DNA of 64,000 nt from Streptomyces sp. S465 (lineage in GTDB: Bacteria > Actinomycetota > Actinomycetes > Streptomycetales > Streptomycetaceae): contig NZ_CP114036.1 in the NCBI RefSeq assembly GCF_026898115.1, positions 2,046,001 to 2,110,000 of the forward strand, written 5' to 3'. The position numbers and the translations under genes are program-made. The notes under the pieces were generated by a model, which had not been told where the DNA came from, searched no databases, and was given only the letters and a program-made list of their open reading frames with translations. Shown in pieces: positions 49 to 32,419 of this stretch. Positions within the stretch are counted from its first letter, which is position 1. Every line of letters starts with the position of its first letter.

Positions 49-837
49 ATGCGTCCAGAGGGAGTGATCTTGACACTAGAGGGCACTGCCTCGAATTACC
101 AATGCGATCCCGAACGTGCTGGTTCCCGCCCTCCGCTACCCGGTGGCTGGCCTATTCGCAGCTTTCTGGGCAGGCTGCAGGAGAACATCCGGGCGGACAT
201 TCTCCAGCTCGGGACCCGCCGTCACTTCTCGCCGGAGGAAATCCTCCTCCAGGAGGGCGACCGTTCCCAGTATGTGATTTTGCTGCACTCCGGGTTCGTT
301 AAGGTCACCGCTCAGATGGAGAACGGCCGTGAGGCCCTTCTGGCCATCCGGGCCGGCGGTGACATCGTGGGCGAGATGGCCGCCCTGGATGATGCTCCGA
401 GATCGGCGACTGTCACCGCATGTGGGGAGATTTCAGCCAACGTCGTGGAATGTGAAGATCTGCAGCTCTTTCTCCACTGCCATTCCGACGCTGCAATCAC
501 ACTCACCGGCATGGTCGTCGAGAAGCTGCGGTGGGCCAACCGCCGCCGGGTGGAGTACGGCGGGCTCCCTGTCAAGGCACGTCTTGCACGGGTGCTGTCG
601 GAACTCGCGGCGTCGCACGGCCATCCAGTACGCCGGAGTCTCGTCATCGGTGTCGCCCTGAGTCAGCCGGAACTGGCCGCGCTGACCGGCTCCTCGGAGG
701 TCACGGTCCACAAGGCGCTCAGAGAGCTGCGCCAAGAAAGGCTGCTCGCCACCGGTTACCGCCGCATCACGGTACTCGACCTGCCGGGACTTCGTCGGAC
801 CGCGGGCCTGCCCGACCCTCCGTCCCGCCATCCCTAG
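49..837 (+). CDS. Crp/Fnr-family transcriptional regulator
   Basis: A 262-residue regulator. Residues about 45-160 form a cyclic-nucleotide-binding beta-roll. The phosphate-binding cassette is intact (GEM at 108-110 and PRSA at 117-120, with the Glu and Arg that contact cNMP in CRP). Residues 204-233 form the HTH (LSQPELAALTGSSEVTVHKA). Length and order fit the CRP family, with about 40 extra N-terminal residues, so GTG at 64 is a possible later start. Seen: full domain set with no lesion. Inferred: it senses a cyclic nucleotide and regulates the adjacent cassette, whose next gene carries a cyclase-like domain. The ligand is not known. No Fnr-type cysteine cluster is visible. Confidence 0.9.
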   Translation: MRPEGVILTLEGTASNYQCDPERAGSRPPLPGGWPIRSFLGRLQENIRADILQLGTRRHFSPEEILLQEGDRSQYVILLHSGFVKVTAQMENGREALLAIRAGGDIVGEMAALDDAPRSATVTACGEISANVVECEDLQLFLHCHSDAAITLTGMVVEKLRWANRRRVEYGGLPVKARLARVLSELAASHGHPVRRSLVIGVALSQPELAALTGSSEVTVHKALRELRQERLLATGYRRITVLDLPGLRRTAGLPDPPSRHP

Positions 838-947: not shown

Positions 948-2030
948 ATGGCATCACAGGACATCATCACGCGCCATCTCTGCTTGGCTGCTGACGTAGA
1001 GCGGTACAGCAGGCTGGACATCCCACAGCAGGAGCGGACGCAGGCCGAACTCGTCGGGGTGCTCGACAGGGCAGCGGCTCTGAGCAGTCTGGACAGGCTC
1101 TCCTGGAATCGTCAGCCACAGGGCGACCAGGAGTTCGCCGTGCTGCCCGTCGGCACTCCGGAGCAGGTTGTGCTCGGTGAGTTCGTCAGGAATCTTACGG
1201 TTGCCCTCAAGGAGTGCAACGCTCATCGTCCACGTAAGCAGCCGATGAGGCTTCGGCTGGCCGTGGACATCGGGGTGGCAAGGACCGCAGCACTCGGGCA
1301 CAGCGGCCCCGCACCGATAGCCGTCGCCCGATATCTGAACGCACCCCCGCTGAAGTCCGTGCTGAGCGGGACCCGCACCACGGACCTGGCCGTCATCGTC
1401 TCGGACCGGCTCTACCAGGACGTCGTCCAACATCACAGCCACGGGTTGGACCCGGACCAGTACGTCAAGGTGCACGTGCAACACGACGAGTTCGCCGCAT
1501 ACGGGTGGATCCAGATCCCCGAACACAGTAAGGCCGAGATCCACGGCCTTGCCCTGAACGGTCGCCCAGTGGCAGGCATGGCGGACGGAAAGCGGGAGGA
1601 CCCCAGCATGAACACACCCGAAGCGATCGCGGCGCTGGCCGGTAGTGCTGTCGTAGGCGCCATGGCCACTGACGCCTGGTCTTTCGTACGGGACCGGTGC
1701 GCCGCGCTGCTCGACCGCCACGCGCCCGAGGAGAGGCCGACAGTTCTGGATCTGTTCGAAGGCTTCGACCGGTGCCTCTCCACTGTGGAGGGGGAACAGC
1801 ACGACAGCCTCGCCGCTATGTTCGCCGACCGCGCCGCCACCGCTCTGGCACCCATCGCGGCACTTTCCGGCGAAGCAGCCGACGAAGTGCGAGCCCTCGC
1901 TGAAGCAGCGGACTCCGCGCGTACGGACAGCGCCCCCCGCAACGCCATCAGCGTCCGCGACGTGCGAGCCAAGGGGGACTTCATCCTGGGCGGCCGCGAC
2001 ACCAACGTCTACAAGGGGGGACAGCGGTGA
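948..2030 (+). CDS. Nucleotidyl-cyclase-like protein with C-terminal signalling motif
   Basis: A 360-residue protein that I do not recognise as a named family. Residues 10-165 resemble a class III nucleotide cyclase fold. Asp16 (in LAADVERY) and Asp60 (in QGDQEFAVLP) lie where the two metal-binding aspartates are expected. RLRLAVDIG at 101-109 and VARYL with Arg128 follow as in the core, but the Asn expected before that Arg is replaced, so activity is uncertain. From 221 a second part begins (EAIAALAGSAVVGAMATDAW), a hydrophobic helix seen in small actinobacterial conflict-type proteins. The last 27 residues contain ISV..D......D...GRD, which recurs in the next protein. It is 110 bases downstream of the Crp gene and its stop overlaps the next start (GTGA). 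Confidence 0.6.
   Translation: MASQDIITRHLCLAADVERYSRLDIPQQERTQAELVGVLDRAAALSSLDRLSWNRQPQGDQEFAVLPVGTPEQVVLGEFVRNLTVALKECNAHRPRKQPMRLRLAVDIGVARTAALGHSGPAPIAVARYLNAPPLKSVLSGTRTTDLAVIVSDRLYQDVVQHHSHGLDPDQYVKVHVQHDEFAAYGWIQIPEHSKAEIHGLALNGRPVAGMADGKREDPSMNTPEAIAALAGSAVVGAMATDAWSFVRDRCAALLDRHAPEERPTVLDLFEGFDRCLSTVEGEQHDSLAAMFADRAATALAPIAALSGEAADEVRALAEAADSARTDSAPRNAISVRDVRAKGDFILGGRDTNVYKGGQR
1594..1610 (+). promoter_or_regulatory. Strong internal ribosome-binding site and ATG
   Basis: GGGAGGA at 1594-1600 lies 7 bases before an in-frame ATG at 1608-1610 inside the cyclase-like gene. Starting there would give a separate 140-residue protein containing only the ATDAW helical part and the C-terminal GRD motif. 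The Shine-Dalgarno is better than the one at 948, which suggests two products from one reading frame. This is inference from sequence only. Confidence 0.4.
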
Positions 2031-4099
2031 CATTCGATAGTGATGAACCCGAGGGCTTCGAAGGGACAGCAGTCCAGAGGATCTCGGTCGACCGCTCGTC
2101 CGCGGAAAGGGATCTGGTGGTAGCGGGCCGCGACGTCACCATCAAGAACATCGTCTCGGGCCTTGCCATGCTGCGTCCACGCTCTGTCGACCGCAGCCGC
2201 ATCCTCCGCCAATCACTGTTCGTCCCGCCGCCCATGCGGTTCGGTGGGCCGGTACCGGAGCCGTTTCCTGTTGCTGACCCGAACGGGGGTAGCGTCCTCG
2301 CACTCCTGGGCAAGGAGTCCTCCGGCCGCCGCACTGTGGCACTGGACCTGCTCGATGCGACTTTGGGCGACAAGGACCGCGAAATCTTCGAGTTGTACCC
2401 GGACTGGGATAAGCCCGATGTCGATCGCATCCCCTGCGACTCCCACACCGGATATCTTCTGAACCTTGCTGGGGTCAAGGAGCCACTCGACAAGGAGTTC
2501 CACGACCGGCTTGCCGAGTACGCCATGCGGGCCCACAGCACCGATACCCTCCTGGTCGTCGTCGCCACTCCGCGTGTCTGGAACAGCACCGCCGTGAACA
2601 GCCGGACCTCACCGGTCAGGATCATGGAGTTGGGCCGGCCTTCCGCGCTAGAGGTCGCCCGTCGGCGGATCGAAGCCGATGACGAGCGTGCCGGGCGTGC
2701 CTCATGGCTTACGGACGACTCCAGTGTGTTCGCTGGTCTGCTGCACGGAGACGAGCCGCCTGCCCAGGCCGTACACCTGGCCCATGTCGTCCTGCGTGCG
2801 GAGGGCCCCGGGGACACGGATGCGCTCGATGGGTTCATGGGCTGGAAGCACAAGCTCACCGACTGGTTCGGCTCCACCGACCAGGAGGCGCCGGAACGGC
2901 GGGCTCTCCAGATTGCCGCCGCTTTCCTCGACGGCGCCCGGGCCCGCACCGTCCTCGACGCCGCTGACGCCCTCCTGGCCGACCCCGAGATCCACTGGCC
3001 AGTGCGGCACGGCGGTCCGCTGGGGGGTGCGGGCGGCAGCCAACGCTGCTCCGACGCCGAACTCGACTATTCGTCGGACGGCACCGTCTCCATCACGAAG
3101 CATCACCCGGGTATAGACCGGGCTCTGCTCGGGCACGTCTGGCGGGAGCGGCCTCAACTCGTGCCCGTCTTGACCCGCTGGCTCTCAGCGATCAGCCAGC
3201 CACAGGGCATCGCCGACACCTGCCTCCCCAGGCTGGCTGGGGTCCTGACGACTCTGGCCGAGTCCGAAGGCGCCGACGTTGTTCTCGGCCTGACGCAGGA
3301 CTGGCTGCGCAATGGCAGTGTCCGCTACACGCAGCTCGCGGTCGACGTGCTGGACCAACTCGCGGTCAACCCCGTTCTGGGAGCAGAAGTCCGTAAGGTC
3401 CTCGCTCAATGGGCTCAGGGCACCAACACGCCCGAACGCCAGTTGGCCGTCGCAGAGGTGTGCAGAAGGAAGCTGGCTCGTGAATACACCAGCGTCGCCC
3501 TGACCAGGCTGAAGTACGTCCTGGAAAGCACCTGGAAAAAGAAGGCACGAACACCTGATGCCGAAAAGGTACGCACGGTAGCGCTGACCACGCTGAAGTC
3601 CCTGCTGGGCGACACCGATCTCTCTGCGCGAGTACTGAAGACGCTCGTCGACTGGACAACATCGGAGAAGAACGCATTGGAGAAGCTGGAGTTCAGCCGC
3701 ACCGCCTTCCTCGACGTATTCGCTCTGGACGACAGCGAATCCTCCACGTCACCGGTCCACCTCCTCCTCATGGCAGAAGCGGAACACGGCGAGGCTGTCC
3801 GAGAGTTGCTCCGTCAAGGTTGGCAGGCCACATGGCACCGTGCTCAACTACGCGAGCGGGCGGCGGAGGTACTCGGTCAGTGGTGCGACGCAGCCGAAAC
3901 CGGTGAGCTGCCTGGAGACGCCGTGGAGGAAGTCGTCGCCGTCATTTTCTCGGCCCAGGCCGATGTGATGGGCGGCGAACTCGACAGACTCATCGCTGGC
4001 ACGGCGCCGTTCCGAGCCCAGCTGCGTACGAGGCTTTTCCACGTTGTCAGGGAGACGGCAGCCCGCCGGGCAGCGTCCAGCGCTCACAGCGCCGCATGA
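2027..4099 (+). CDS. P-loop-like (STAND-type?) protein with helical repeat region
   Basis: A 690-residue protein of unknown function, started at the GTG that overlaps the previous stop by 4 bases. Residues 19-40 (ISV.......D...GRD....) match the C-terminal motif of the upstream protein. A nucleotide-binding-like segment follows: VLALLGKESSGRRT at 90-103 is a Walker A look-alike in which the usual GK[ST] is GRR-T, and TLLVVVATP at 174-182 is a hydrophobic strand without the Walker B acid. From about 280 to 680 the protein is almost wholly alpha-helical with HEAT/ARM-like character. The layout (short motif, P-loop region, solenoid) resembles STAND/NLR-like sensors, but the P-loop is degenerate. 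It may sense a trigger through the solenoid and pair with the cyclase-like protein through the shared motif. Confidence 0.55.
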   Translation: MTFDSDEPEGFEGTAVQRISVDRSSAERDLVVAGRDVTIKNIVSGLAMLRPRSVDRSRILRQSLFVPPPMRFGGPVPEPFPVADPNGGSVLALLGKESSGRRTVALDLLDATLGDKDREIFELYPDWDKPDVDRIPCDSHTGYLLNLAGVKEPLDKEFHDRLAEYAMRAHSTDTLLVVVATPRVWNSTAVNSRTSPVRIMELGRPSALEVARRRIEADDERAGRASWLTDDSSVFAGLLHGDEPPAQAVHLAHVVLRAEGPGDTDALDGFMGWKHKLTDWFGSTDQEAPERRALQIAAAFLDGARARTVLDAADALLADPEIHWPVRHGGPLGGAGGSQRCSDAELDYSSDGTVSITKHHPGIDRALLGHVWRERPQLVPVLTRWLSAISQPQGIADTCLPRLAGVLTTLAESEGADVVLGLTQDWLRNGSVRYTQLAVDVLDQLAVNPVLGAEVRKVLAQWAQGTNTPERQLAVAEVCRRKLAREYTSVALTRLKYVLESTWKKKARTPDAEKVRTVALTTLKSLLGDTDLSARVLKTLVDWTTSEKNALEKLEFSRTAFLDVFALDDSESSTSPVHLLLMAEAEHGEAVRELLRQGWQATWHRAQLRERAAEVLGQWCDAAETGELPGDAVEEVVAVIFSAQADVMGGELDRLIAGTAPFRAQLRTRLFHVVRETAARRAASSAHSAA

Positions 4100-4887
4100 G
4101 ACCGCGCCTCTTCCGCCGGCGCGACGCCGGTCCCACCAGGCACGAGGCCCGGCCTTTCGGTAGGTCCTTCGCCGCCCAGTTGCCCAGCGCGGACCACGGT
4201 CTCTATTTCGACGTGCGTTTCGCATACGACTGGACAGCAGAGTCATCACACCCGGCTCCGCTCCTCCACGGCGACGCCGTGGCACGGTCACTGCTGACGG
4301 ACCGTGCCACGGAAGCCCTATGCAGACATCCCATCCGCATGGCCGACACCGCAGAAACAGCCGTCAACCGCATGCTCAGCGAAGAGATCTGTGACGATCA
4401 GAGGCTGCGCGTGACCGGCCGGGTCACGGTGGTTGTCGCTGAGGACACACTGCTGGCAGCCCGCCGCCGGAGCGAGGCCGCCGAACGGCACCGCGTGGAG
4501 GAGGCAGCCCACGTCTCACGCCTGGAAGTGCTCCGCGACCTCCTGCTCGACGGCGGACTCGGCCTGGTGTGGTGGATCGACAGGTACGCGGATCTGCAGT
4601 TCTCAGCCGGAGACCCGAAGACCAAGACGGAGTCGGTCATCGGTGCCTTCCGACTCGTGACCGATGCCCTGCATGCCGATACGACCTTCAGCCAGCGCGA
4701 CAAGAACGCCCTGATGAGAGCCCGAGTCGAGGAACTGCTCGGTGCTTTCCACAACCCAGACACAAGAATGCGCGCGATGGATCTTCTGGAGACCGTCCTG
4801 AACCTTCTCGCGCCCGAGTCGGCGGACCCAGAACAGGCAGAGGCAGAACAGCATAAGGACCTGGTCCCTGTACCCGAACCACCTTGA
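4096..4887 (+). CDS. Hypothetical protein, last gene of the Crp/cyclase cassette
   Basis: A 263-residue protein whose ATG overlaps the preceding stop (ATGA), so it is very likely translated together with it. No motif allows a firm family call. The N-terminal half is beta-rich (GLYFDVRFAYDWTAE, RVTGRVTVVVAED). It is followed by a charged helix (LLAARRRSEAAERHRVEEAAHVSRLEVLRDLL, about 115-150) and a helical C-terminus ending in an acidic tail. The beta-then-long-helix order is faintly like SPFH/band-7 proteins, but there is no membrane segment and I would not assign it. The gene ends just before a truncated IS, so a further cassette gene could have been lost. Confidence 0.55.
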   Translation: MRPRLFRRRDAGPTRHEARPFGRSFAAQLPSADHGLYFDVRFAYDWTAESSHPAPLLHGDAVARSLLTDRATEALCRHPIRMADTAETAVNRMLSEEICDDQRLRVTGRVTVVVAEDTLLAARRRSEAAERHRVEEAAHVSRLEVLRDLLLDGGLGLVWWIDRYADLQFSAGDPKTKTESVIGAFRLVTDALHADTTFSQRDKNALMRARVEELLGAFHNPDTRMRAMDLLETVLNLLAPESADPEQAEAEQHKDLVPVPEPP

Positions 4888-4892
4888 TCTCA

Positions 4893-5440
<548 letters not shown>

Positions 5441-5543
5441 GGGTGGTTCGCGCTGCGCCAGCAGGCGGCGGCGCTGGACCGCGTCGGCCCCGCGCCAGCG
5501 GGGGTGGTTCCATGAGCAGACCCCGGCCGCCGTCGGCCTGCTA

Positions 5544-6642
5544 GGGCGCGTATCGAGTCGTGATCAATGGGTGGTCCGGGTGAGGTCTTTGATCCAGATC
5601 ATCGAGGCTCGTAGGTGGAGGCCAGCGAGGTAGCTGTCCGGGGTCTTGTCGTATCGGGTGGCAATGCCTCGCCAGGCCTTGAGCTTGTTGTTCAGGCGTT
5701 CGACGGTGTTCCTTTCCTTGTAGAGAGCGGTGTCGTGGCTGACGGGCCGACCGCCCCTGGAGCCCTTCTTCTTCCGGTTGGTGGCCTGGTCCTTCTTCTC
5801 CGGGATCACTGCCTTGATGCCGCGTTGACGCAGGTGGGCCCGGTTGCCGCGAGACGAGTAGGCCTTGTCCCCAGCGACCGCGTCCGGCTGGGTGCGGGGG
5901 CGGCCGACGGGGCCGCGGACCCGTAGCTTCTTGAGCACCGGGATGAACTGCGGGCTGTCCGCGGCCTGGCCCCCAGTCAGCACGAACGCCAGCGGGCGGC
6001 ACTTGCGGTCGGCGGCCAGATGGACCTTGCTGGTCTGCCCACCCCTGGAGCGTCCGAGGAGAGCGGCCTTCAAACGGAGTCTTCGCCGACGCCGGATACG
6101 CCGTCGCTCCTCCCGCTCGGGATCTGCTGTACCATCCTGCCCGCTTTGTTCTTCGAGGCTGCCCCCTTTTGACCCGGCCTTCTCCTCCTCGGCGGCAGTC
6201 TTCTCCAACGCAGTGACGACGTCCTCGCCCAGGTGCATCCCGGCGGCATCATGATGTGCCCGCACGGTGGTGGAGTCGATACTGACCAGGGACAGGTCCA
6301 CCTCACCCCGCTTCGCCGCTTCCGCGATCAGGCCATCCAGCAGGGCCTCGAAGACGCCGGCGTCATGCCACTGCCGGAAGCGGTTGTGCACGGTCGACCA
6401 GGCGCCGAACTCCTGCGGCATCTCCCGCCACTGCCCGCTGATCCCCAACCGTCAGATCACACCCTCGAACTGCTGCCGCAGCCGCTCGGGGTACGGGCCG
6501 TACTCGCCGATCGGCAGGTACGGCTCGATGAACTCCCACTCTGCGTCTGTCAGTTGCACTCGCGTCACGCAAGAAGATCTACCGGACCAGACCTCGCCGC
6601 GAGAGTGAATCCCGCAGATTGATCACAACTCGATACGCGCCC
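5544..6642 (-). mobile_element. IS5-family insertion sequence inside a CRISPR spacer
   Basis: Terminal inverted repeats of 23 bases (5544-5566 and 6620-6642, one mismatch; outer end GGGCGCGTATCGAGT) bound a 1099-bp element. TA at 5542-5543 and 6643-6644 is the target duplication. It carries one transposase gene on the minus strand whose stop codon lies in the left inverted repeat. Removing the element and one TA restores a 32-base CRISPR spacer, which confirms the boundaries. Confidence 0.88.
5564..6568 (-). pseudogene. IS5-family transposase with in-frame stop
   Basis: Reading from GTG at 6568 gives a typical IS5-family N-terminus (LTDAEWEFIEPYLP, YGPYPERLRQQFEGVI). It then meets TGA at 6454-6452 (codon 39), where the family has Trp (TGG), and continues in the same frame RLGISGQWREMPQEFG. 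The remaining 294 codons are intact, with the DDE residues in DSTTVRAHHDA, AGDKAYSSRG and YKERNTVERLNNKLK. A TTG at 6448 could start a shortened product, but without the N-terminal region it is unlikely to transpose. A single G-to-A change explains the lesion. Confidence 0.82.
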
Positions 6643-6711
6643 TAGTCGGCCCCGCGCCAGCGGGGGTGGTTCCGCGACACGTCGGGCTCCGATGCCAGCG
6701 CAGCGTCGGCC

Positions 6712-7920
<1,209 letters not shown>

Positions 7921-31009: not shown

Positions 31010-31384
31010 TCAGACGGAGACCAGGTCGCAGACGAAGATCAGGGTCTCGCCCGGCTTGATCCGGCCGCCACCGGCGCCCTGGTCCCCATAGGCGAGGTGC
31101 GGCGGAATGATCAGCTGCCGGCGGCCGCCGACCTTCATGCCCTGGAGGCCCTGGTCCCAGCCGCTGATGACCTGGCCCACACCGAGCTGGATCCGCAGCG
31201 GGGTGCCACGGTTGTAGCTCGCGTCGAACTCCTCACCGGTGCTGAAGGCGACGCCCACATAGTGGACGGCGATGTTGTCGCCGGCCTTCGCCGCGGGGCC
31301 GTCGCCCTCCCAGATGTCCTTGATCTCCAGCTCGGCCGGCGGCTCGCCGCCCGGGAAGTCGACCTCGGGCTTCTCGATGCTCAC
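31010..31384 (-). CDS. FKBP-type peptidyl-prolyl isomerase (cytoplasmic)
   Basis: 124 residues comprising one FKBP domain: VHYVGVAFSTGEEFDASYNRG, VISGWDQGLQGMKVGGRR, IIPPHLAYGDQG, LIFVCDLVSV. The FKBP ligand pocket residues (Y, FD, W, Y) are present. GTG at 31384 (SIEKPEVDFPGGEPP) is the usual start in this family; an upstream start would add a few residues that do not look coding. No signal peptide, so it acts in the cytoplasm as a protein-folding catalyst. It is paired with the exported FKBP lipoprotein gene just upstream. Confidence 0.92.
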   Translation of the reverse strand: MSIEKPEVDFPGGEPPAELEIKDIWEGDGPAAKAGDNIAVHYVGVAFSTGEEFDASYNRGTPLRIQLGVGQVISGWDQGLQGMKVGGRRQLIIPPHLAYGDQGAGGGRIKPGETLIFVCDLVSV

Positions 31385-31423
31385 GAAATAGCTCCTTGTG
31401 ATGTTGTGGGCAACCCGCACAGG

Positions 31424-32419
31424 CTACAGAACCGCCAGGATGTCCACGGAGAAGACCAGCGTGGAGTTGGCGGGGATGCCCTTCTGGGCCGCCTTGCCGT
31501 AGCCCAGGTCCGGGGGTACGACGATCATGACCCGGCTGCCCACCTTCTTGCCGGTCAGCCCCTGCGACCAGCCCTTGACCACCTGCTGCAGCGAGAACTG
31601 GGCGAGCTCACCGCGCTTGTAGGTGGAGTCGAACTCCTTGCCGCCGTCCCACAGCACGCCCCTGTACTGGACGAGCAGGGCGTCGGTCTTCTTGACCTCC
31701 TTGCCGTCGCCCTCGATGACGTACTCGGAGACGAGCTTCTTGGGCGCGGACTTCTTGGGGACGGTGATGGTGGGCGCCTTGCCGTCGGTGTTGGTCGACA
31801 CCTTGGGCAGGTCGGGGTCGGTCTGCTCCACCTTGCTGCCCTTGGCCGAGCTCTTGGCGTCGTAGGCGTTCACGATGTCGATGACGAAGACCAGCGTGTC
31901 GGTGCCCTTGATACCGGCCTGCGGCTGGCCCTGCTTGCCGTAGGCGTACGCGGGCGGGACGGCCAGCTCCAGCCGGCTGCCCACGTTCCGGCCCAGCAGT
32001 CCCTGGTCCCAGCCCGGGAGGACCTGGCCCTGGCCGACCGGGAAGGCGGCGGTCTTCTTCTTGTCGAAGGTGTTGTCGATGGCCTTCCCGGTGTCCCAGA
32101 TCTGCGCCAGATAGTTGATCTGGAGCCAGTCGCCCTTGACCGTCTTCCGGCCGTCTCCCTGGCTGATCGTCTTGACCGCCAGATGGCTCGACGGCTCACC
32201 CGTGCCCTTGGCGACCTTCGGCTTCTCACCGAACTTCTTACCGCCGGTAATGGGCGGCACCGGTCCGGAGACGATCTTGCCGCTGGGGGCCGGTGAGGGA
32301 CTCTGGCTGGTCGGCTCCTGGGACGGGCTGCTCTTGTCGGACCCTGATTTTTCGTCACCGCAGCCCGCGAGCGTGAGCAGGCCCGCGGGTACGGCAAGGA
32401 GTACGGAGCGTCGGCGCAC
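31424..32419 (-). CDS. FKBP-type peptidyl-prolyl isomerase lipoprotein, two domains
   Basis: 331 residues with a lipoprotein signal (SVLLAVPAGLLTLAGC, Cys about 20), a Ser/Pro-rich linker and two FKBP domains (about 80-190 and 220-330): YLAQIWDTGKAIDNTF / YRGVLWDGGKEFDSTYKRG; PGWDQGLLGRNVGSR / KGWSQGLTGKKVGSR; YAYGKQG / LGYGKAA. It is anchored outside the membrane and probably assists folding of exported proteins. GTG start at 32419. The gap to the cytoplasmic FKBP gene is 39 bases, so they are co-transcribed. Confidence 0.93.
   Translation of the reverse strand: MRRRSVLLAVPAGLLTLAGCGDEKSGSDKSSPSQEPTSQSPSPAPSGKIVSGPVPPITGGKKFGEKPKVAKGTGEPSSHLAVKTISQGDGRKTVKGDWLQINYLAQIWDTGKAIDNTFDKKKTAAFPVGQGQVLPGWDQGLLGRNVGSRLELAVPPAYAYGKQGQPQAGIKGTDTLVFVIDIVNAYDAKSSAKGSKVEQTDPDLPKVSTNTDGKAPTITVPKKSAPKKLVSEYVIEGDGKEVKKTDALLVQYRGVLWDGGKEFDSTYKRGELAQFSLQQVVKGWSQGLTGKKVGSRVMIVVPPDLGYGKAAQKGIPANSTLVFSVDILAVL

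Follow-up and report, generated by a model that had tools for sequence, protein, structure and literature searches.

A candidate amyloid-type signalling motif shared by a cyclase-fold effector and a STAND-like receptor in Streptomyces sp. S465

Do two adjacent genes of Streptomyces sp. S465 encode an effector and a receptor that find each other through a short motif carried by both? The genes lie in a stretch of 64,000 nucleotides (positions 2,046,001 to 2,110,000 of the forward strand of contig NZ_CP114036.1, assembly GCF_026898115.1), which we call the window and whose numbering is used for its features. Gene A encodes a protein with a cyclase-homology domain, a helical module and a short C-terminal tail, and gene B encodes a receptor-like P-loop protein. 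The original prediction, made from the letters alone, held that the tail of the first protein matches a stretch near the start of the second, in the manner of bacterial amyloid signalling motifs. We find it very likely that receptor and effector share a paired motif, and the account that we favour, and regard as fairly probable, is that of a signalling motif of the BASS kind by which a STAND/NLR-like receptor (gene B) would act on its effector (gene A) through amyloid-like templating, with a cyclic nucleotide as the output.

The two matching stretches were found where they had been placed, at residues 334-354 of gene A and residues 19-39 of gene B, and they align without gaps with 8 of the 21 residues identical and, by our own count, 4 further conservative changes. 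The similarity itself was therefore confirmed, and the earlier figure of about 10 agreeing positions in 22 was slightly generous. At the DNA level 34 of the 63 bases are identical, which argues that the pair is no fresh DNA duplication.

The evidence that carries the pairing comes from homologous loci (denoted here by L numbers). A search with the single gene B protein gave homologues in 23 of 199 genomes of the genus. With a profile of the gene B region that follows the motif (A1, 17 sequences), homologues at an E value of 1e-10 were found in at least 128 of 295 genus genomes and in at least 48 of 394 genomes of the class, spread over 17 of 137 genera, the own genome being included in each case. 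These counts are lower bounds, since scoring was confined to the few top candidates of each genome and the listing by genome missed the receptor of locus L176, yet hmmsearch with the same alignment gives 7e-34 for it. In many of the loci a gene overlaps or directly precedes the gene B homologue, and its tail resembles the head of the receptor. No relative was found when gene A alone was used as a query against the genome contigs.

For each locus, a score was computed between the C-terminal 50 residues encoded by the upstream gene and a receptor head of up to 140 residues. Three of the 79 units (L067, L094 and L122) were dropped for want of a coding-like upstream open reading frame (ORF), where L067 and L094 represent one genome region that does have a cyclase-domain gene upstream and was lost through a gene-start error; the remaining 76 were reduced to 43 non-redundant units by removing those with at least 60% core identity. 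The mean score was 47.0 within loci versus 26.6 between loci (standard deviation 8.3), and the observed sum of 2022 was reached in none of 100,000 permutations, the highest of which gave 1418. Some wrong upstream ORFs probably remain (e.g. in L073, L078 and L109) and should weaken rather than strengthen this result. For the window tail its own head ranked first, and for the window head its own tail ranked second, behind that of L114 from the same clade; the pair scores of the six loci of this clade in the set were 38 (window), 41 (L061), 40 (L113), 33 (L111), 33 (L114) and 28 (L112).

A second set consisted of other loci (L176-L196), for which the cyclase-domain gene was compared with the gene after it. 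Six of the 21 loci were excluded for lack of a downstream gene, which left 15 units and, after removal of redundancy, 10. The mean score was 52.9 within versus 30.9 between loci, a result reached by 6 of 100,000 permutations. The receptors of three of the ten match the gene B profile (L176 as above, L177 at 2e-33 and L189 at 5e-16), and the remaining seven have no match to it at 1e-6. L176 (G000:C1:5492500-5501000, minus strand) is a second CRP-cyclase-receptor locus of the window's own genome, with the order CRP-type regulator, cyclase domain, receptor of 707 amino acids, Band_7-like protein (2.4e-4, just under the Pfam cut-off) and PycTM (Pfam 1.7e-18). Its tail and head, SFGGSLVAGDQHGVSGGTVHGDVHLGG and SFGGSLVGGSQHGVSGGRVHGDVFMGG, are near-identical, of a type unlike that of the window, and score 122, more than any other pair.

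Motif types change from one group of loci to another, and they change in both partners together. By reading the sequences we set up five motif classes, in which 38 of the 79 units were placed and the others left out; the window class is a clade of seven loci with a gene B identity to the window of 37% or more. The tail profile matched the head profile of the same class in the window class (P 2.1e-6), the RHIM-like class (P 2.3e-7), the GQVVQAG...NGGV class (P 1.6e-11), the GPVN class (P 1.9e-4) and the GGQH class (P 1.7e-7), and all 20 mismatched comparisons gave P 0.003 or worse. For the window class, none of 200 column shuffles reached the score of the match, tails and heads taken from disjoint loci still gave P 1.9e-4 and 4.7e-4, and P was 2.6e-4 when the window itself was left out. 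The view that this is a BASS-like pair, with the motif at the C-terminus of the effector and at the N-terminus of the receptor encoded next door, is in line with these results: homologous loci keep a matched pair, and its type changes in both partners at once. Homologues that lack the motif, named by the original prediction as the case that would speak against it, were not seen among the seven loci of the window clade, where some pairs are weak, and were seen in a distant subclade.

To our eye, the many types rich in Gly, Asn, Gln and Asp, of which some contain a VQ(I/V)G core, resemble amyloid signalling motifs already described, and we take the GQVVQAG...NGGV class to be similar to BASS motifs. 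The motif of the window is best read as one of the BASS kind, perhaps of a new type. The Pfam RHIM family was absent at E values up to 10 from seven proteins, five of them from RHIM-like loci, in a search in which the HMMER filters drop most weak matches; a weak match to Curlin_rpt in L072 (0.33) was not taken as evidence. A relation to BASS3 was tried with two published peptides (one BASS3, one BASS3-like) and gave no signal for the window; the top match to the BASS3 peptide was at a different locus (the tail of L099, score 35). In L140 (4126-7688, Nocardiopsis alborubida), a relative of the window unit in whose locus no cyclase domain was found, a stand-alone helical module ends in VRAKGDIVLSGRDSKVEKTR, which is near to the window tail.

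Structure prediction places both motifs outside folded domains, as the original prediction required. The AlphaFold2 model of gene A (13 sequences) has a mean predicted local distance difference test score (pLDDT) of 80.6, and residues 333-360, which hold the motif tail, stay below 50; the model of gene B (13 sequences) has a mean of 76.6, with residues 1-46 below 50. Residues 43-274 of gene B align with AAA+ chains with a VIA-align Z score of up to 10.5 (205 residues aligned, root-mean-square deviation 4.1), and its Foldseek matches include NLRC4, NOD2, NLRP3 and Avs3, all with low template modelling (TM) scores. There was no NLR chain among the 50 best VIA-align matches, which does not exclude that fold. 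The receptor family has no credible Pfam or PADLOC match (nSTAND3 appeared at 0.058 in one of 17 family members scanned with Pfam), and a comparison of gene B with solved structures by sequence gave nothing below an E value of 0.075. Its Walker-A-like stretch, GKESSGRRT, has Arg in place of Lys.

The first domain of gene A has the fold of a class III nucleotide cyclase. In Foldseek it matches 1wc1, 4wp8 and 3mr7 at E values of about 1e-6, with TM scores normalised by target mostly of 0.60-0.75 among the 20 best matches; the class III cyclases matched at this level include Ma1120. Profile A5 of the domain matches 3mr7 at 6.6e-8. Both metal aspartates (Asp16 and Asp60 in the window protein, aligned to 3mr7) are invariant in all 21 chosen, aligned domains, and the same holds for one Arg, which we presume to be the equivalent of the transition-state Arg. 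A local profile alignment showed the second Asp in 34 of 60 sequences, which we took as misplacement; MAFFT with the smaller chosen set gave 21 of 21. The domain occurs in the locus of 20 of the 43 non-redundant units. Of 38 cyclase-domain genes, 33 have a CRP-type gene no more than 1.5 kb away on their own strand, and 5 of the 38 have a PycTM-like ORF in their locus (near-identical loci being kept in this count, and the flanks being limited). From fold and neighbourhood, a cyclic nucleotide is a plausible output. Gene A itself has no Pfam match and no PADLOC family at E values up to 1, and an NCBIfam match at 0.038 was not credited.

The effector place is not always taken by a cyclase domain. 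The helical module of gene A, which by description resembles the published BELL, is homologous to a stand-alone protein in L061 (blastp 3.9e-22 over residues 208-354), and stand-alone helical modules with matching tail motifs occupy the effector place in other loci. In the GPVN class TIR_2 was found in all three genes scanned (Pfam 5.8e-11 to 6.6e-9). The upstream gene is TIR_2 by Pfam in L131, L133 and L137 and similar by eye in L074, L134-L136 and L138; these TIR proteins have a tail of the GPVNxGxGxQY type, which is matched by the receptor head in most of them and weakly in L137.

Fungal HET-s/NWD2 and PP-motif signalosomes and the mammalian RHIM necrosome are systems in which a receptor motif is thought to template the effector motif. 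By eye, some members of the present family have a VQ(I/V)G core like that of RHIM, whereas the window motif is of another type than those of HET-s/NWD2, PP-motif or RHIM systems. According to published work, BASS1-10 connect BELL, TIR or CHAT effectors with NLR receptors (PMC7889193, PMC8086366, PMC9815663, PMC12261475), the adjacency of genes is used as a criterion to recognise amyloid signalling motifs (PMC9815663), varied effectors with matching tails before one receptor family are the published pattern (PMC7889193, PMC9815663), and the general amyloid predictors tried in one study are reported not to separate such motifs (PMC8086366). The window system resembles BASS systems, as described there, in the short motif at the effector C-terminus and receptor N-terminus, the adjacent or overlapping genes, the many motif families, the occurrence in actinobacteria, the TIR effectors in part of the family and the small helical module that carries the motif. 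It differs from them in that its effector combines a cyclase-homology domain of class III with a fused helical module, that gene B shows a changed Walker A and matches no Pfam family credibly, and that a CRP-type regulator belongs to the locus. Among the matches listed by the literature search, no paper connected amyloid signalling motifs with nucleotide cyclases.

With Pycsar systems the locus shares a class III cyclase-fold protein beside a cNMP (cyclic nucleotide)-binding protein and, in L176, PycTM; unlike Pycsar, the window system also has a receptor that carries a paired motif. Gene A does not match the PADLOC PycC model, no PycTM or PycTIR effector was found among the four window genes scanned, and the PycTIR and PycC matches of the CRP gene cover mainly its cNMP-binding part and were for that reason not counted. 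We do not class the window locus as Pycsar, since the defining features were looked for and not found.

Several observations weigh against the account that we favour. The window pair by itself is near chance level: its Smith-Waterman score of 38 is matched or exceeded in 225 of 20,000 shuffles of the window tail and in 4 of the 137 pairs of neighbouring same-strand genes that were drawn from 20 stretches of the genome and from what remains of the window. As stand-alone evidence we rejected it as too weak, and the case is strong only with the homologues. Even there, the own head ranked first for the own tail in 17 of the 43 loci and within the top three in 23; in the second set it ranked first in 3 of 10, with L180, L191 and L192 lacking any pair. 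Leaving out L062 together with the window raised P for the window class to 0.0024, and the two published peptides scored 18 and 14, and 18 and 17, against the window stretches, the medians being 19 and 18. No clear tail/head pair is seen in a distant subclade (L077/L100/L101, L106, L117 and L119); in L077, L106, L117 and L119 the small upstream protein and the receptor head share no clear motif, and coupling may differ there. In the receptor, the Walker A Lys is replaced in all ten sequences of alignment A2 (nine Arg, one Ala) and the acidic Walker B residue was not seen in gene B, so that switching driven by nucleoside triphosphate (NTP) is doubtful; judged from these residues, gene B may switch without NTP hydrolysis. 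In the effector, Gln56, Pro121 and Ile124 of the window protein replace Lys, Asp and Asn of 3mr7, of which the first two presumably specify ATP or GTP and the third presumably acts in the transition state. We do not class gene A as an adenylate or guanylate cyclase, because the substrate-specifying Lys and Asp and the transition-state Asn were looked for and found replaced.

These replacements, together with the stand-alone helical proteins that carry matching tail motifs in other loci, would fit a somewhat unlikely alternative in which the amyloid-like pairing is real, the cyclase domain is catalytically dead and binds nucleotide or regulates, and the helical module is a membrane executioner of the BELL/HeLo-like type. 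The invariance of both metal aspartates and the Arg in the 21 domains argues against it, as do the CRP-type cNMP-binding regulators, and sometimes PycTM, that accompany the domain, and the window protein has no clear transmembrane helix (best 19-residue Kyte-Doolittle mean 1.39).

The paired stretches could also be short docking peptides or a small folded interface that bind one-to-one without cross-beta polymerisation. Pairing, co-variation and position are explained equally well in this way, but the likeness of the motif types to known amyloid signalling motifs (judged by eye, the peptide comparison not being decisive) points away from it, and we consider it unlikely. In published work, effector-associated domains (EADs) couple effectors to core components of related conflict systems by homotypic interaction (PMC7159879), a precedent for docking, and they are described as small domains (PMC7159879, PMC8195603), whereas the matched elements here are terminal stretches, about 20-30 residues long, for which little order is predicted. 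The window shares with these EAD/iSTAND systems, as described there, a matched adaptor on the effector and the neighbouring core component, cNMP cyclase effectors and an inactive STAND-like component; in contrast to the EADs, its matched element is a short end predicted to be disordered. The iSTAND ternary systems are reportedly almost entirely absent from actinobacteria (PMC7159879, PMC8195603), and none of their MoxR and vWA partners was found among the four window genes scanned.

That the resemblance reflects chance or composition in low-complexity gene ends, as the four neighbouring pairs in 137 that do as well as the window pair might suggest, is very improbable in view of the 43-locus permutation, the column shuffles, the disjoint-locus tests and the second set (6 of 100,000), which cover both the family and the window clade, provided that the alignments carry no gross bias.

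Amyloid templating is, by analogy, the best reading of the mechanism. A trigger acting on gene B would cause copies of it to assemble, and their N-terminal motifs would meet in a cross-beta arrangement and template the tails of gene A. This templating would cluster the cyclase-homology domains and the adjoining helical modules. Class III cyclases work as dimers, and clustering might activate the domain. As the likely output, a cyclic nucleotide would carry the signal to the CRP-type regulator, whose gene lies just upstream of gene A; the PycTM membrane effector may respond to it as well in some sister systems.

In the window the CRP-type regulator, gene A, gene B and a third gene form a compact unit on one strand (Table 1), in which genes A and B overlap by four bases (GTGA at 2027-2030). 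Homologues of the third gene directly follow gene B in several relatives; its family matches the Band_7-like protein of L176 in hhalign (P 1.5e-4, probability 52%), and the gene has no Pfam match of its own. Of the four genes of the unit that were scanned (Pfam, NCBIfam and PADLOC), the CRP gene alone gave family matches that we regard as credible. Several transposase-like ORFs, recognised by eye, follow directly after the unit (4890-7846, minus strand), and mobile elements may have cut the operon or carried it in. The top score among the 137 comparison pairs, 56, belongs to two other genes of the window (31010-31420 and 31424-32419, minus strand) that have GWxQGLxGxKVGxR in common and are, we assume, tandem paralogues of an FKBP-type isomerase.

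Table 1. Coordinates of the unit and its parts in the window
Feature	Position	Strand	Basis
CRP-type regulator: cNMP-binding domain and Crp helix-turn-helix (HTH), cassette GDIVGEMAALDDAPRSA	49..837	+	Pfam cNMP_binding 9.2e-18, HTH_Crp_2 2.5e-14; cassette pattern
Gene A, effector, 360 amino acids: cyclase-homology domain, helical module, motif tail	948..2030	+	ORF; AlphaFold2 model
Cyclase-homology domain of gene A, residues 1-205, class III nucleotide cyclase fold	948..1562	+	Foldseek, profile A5
Helical module of gene A, residues 224-327, five helices	1617..1928	+	pLDDT 72-98 by blocks of ten
C-terminal motif of gene A, ISVRDVRAKGDFILGGRDTNV, residues 334-354 of 360	1947..2009	+	alignment; pLDDT below 50
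Gene B, receptor-like P-loop protein, 690 amino acids	2027..4099	+	ORF; profile A1 homologues
N-terminal motif of gene B, ISVDRSSAERDLVVAGRDVTI, residues 19-39 of 690	2081..2143	+	alignment; pLDDT below 50
AAA+/STAND-like NTPase region of gene B, residues 43-274	2153..2848	+	VIA-align; Foldseek; alignment A2
C-terminal region of gene B, mostly helical, repeat-like	2849..4096	+	model; Foldseek matches including armadillo repeat proteins and importins
Third gene, conserved, 263 amino acids, possibly Band_7/SPFH-like	4096..4887	+	hhalign; position in relatives

It is possible, and we propose it tentatively, that these loci represent a large signalosome family of actinobacteria. In it, templating of the amyloid-like kind, driven by the receptor, would activate an enzyme of class III cyclase fold, whose product would be read by a dedicated CRP-type regulator and sometimes by a Pycsar-type membrane effector, and many mutually exclusive motif types would keep the parallel pathways of one cell apart. 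No description of such a family was among the matches listed by the literature search. If true, amyloid signalling and cyclic-nucleotide immunity would be joined in one system, and the amyloid-type link between receptor and effector would no longer be confined to cell-death domains but would include second-messenger enzymes, along with a receptor family without a credible Pfam or PADLOC match. With its paired changes of motif, this conserved receptor family is a natural data set on the specificity of amyloid templating, and since the window and L176 systems carry different motifs in one genome, about 3.4 Mb apart, specificity and insulation are directly testable in a single organism.

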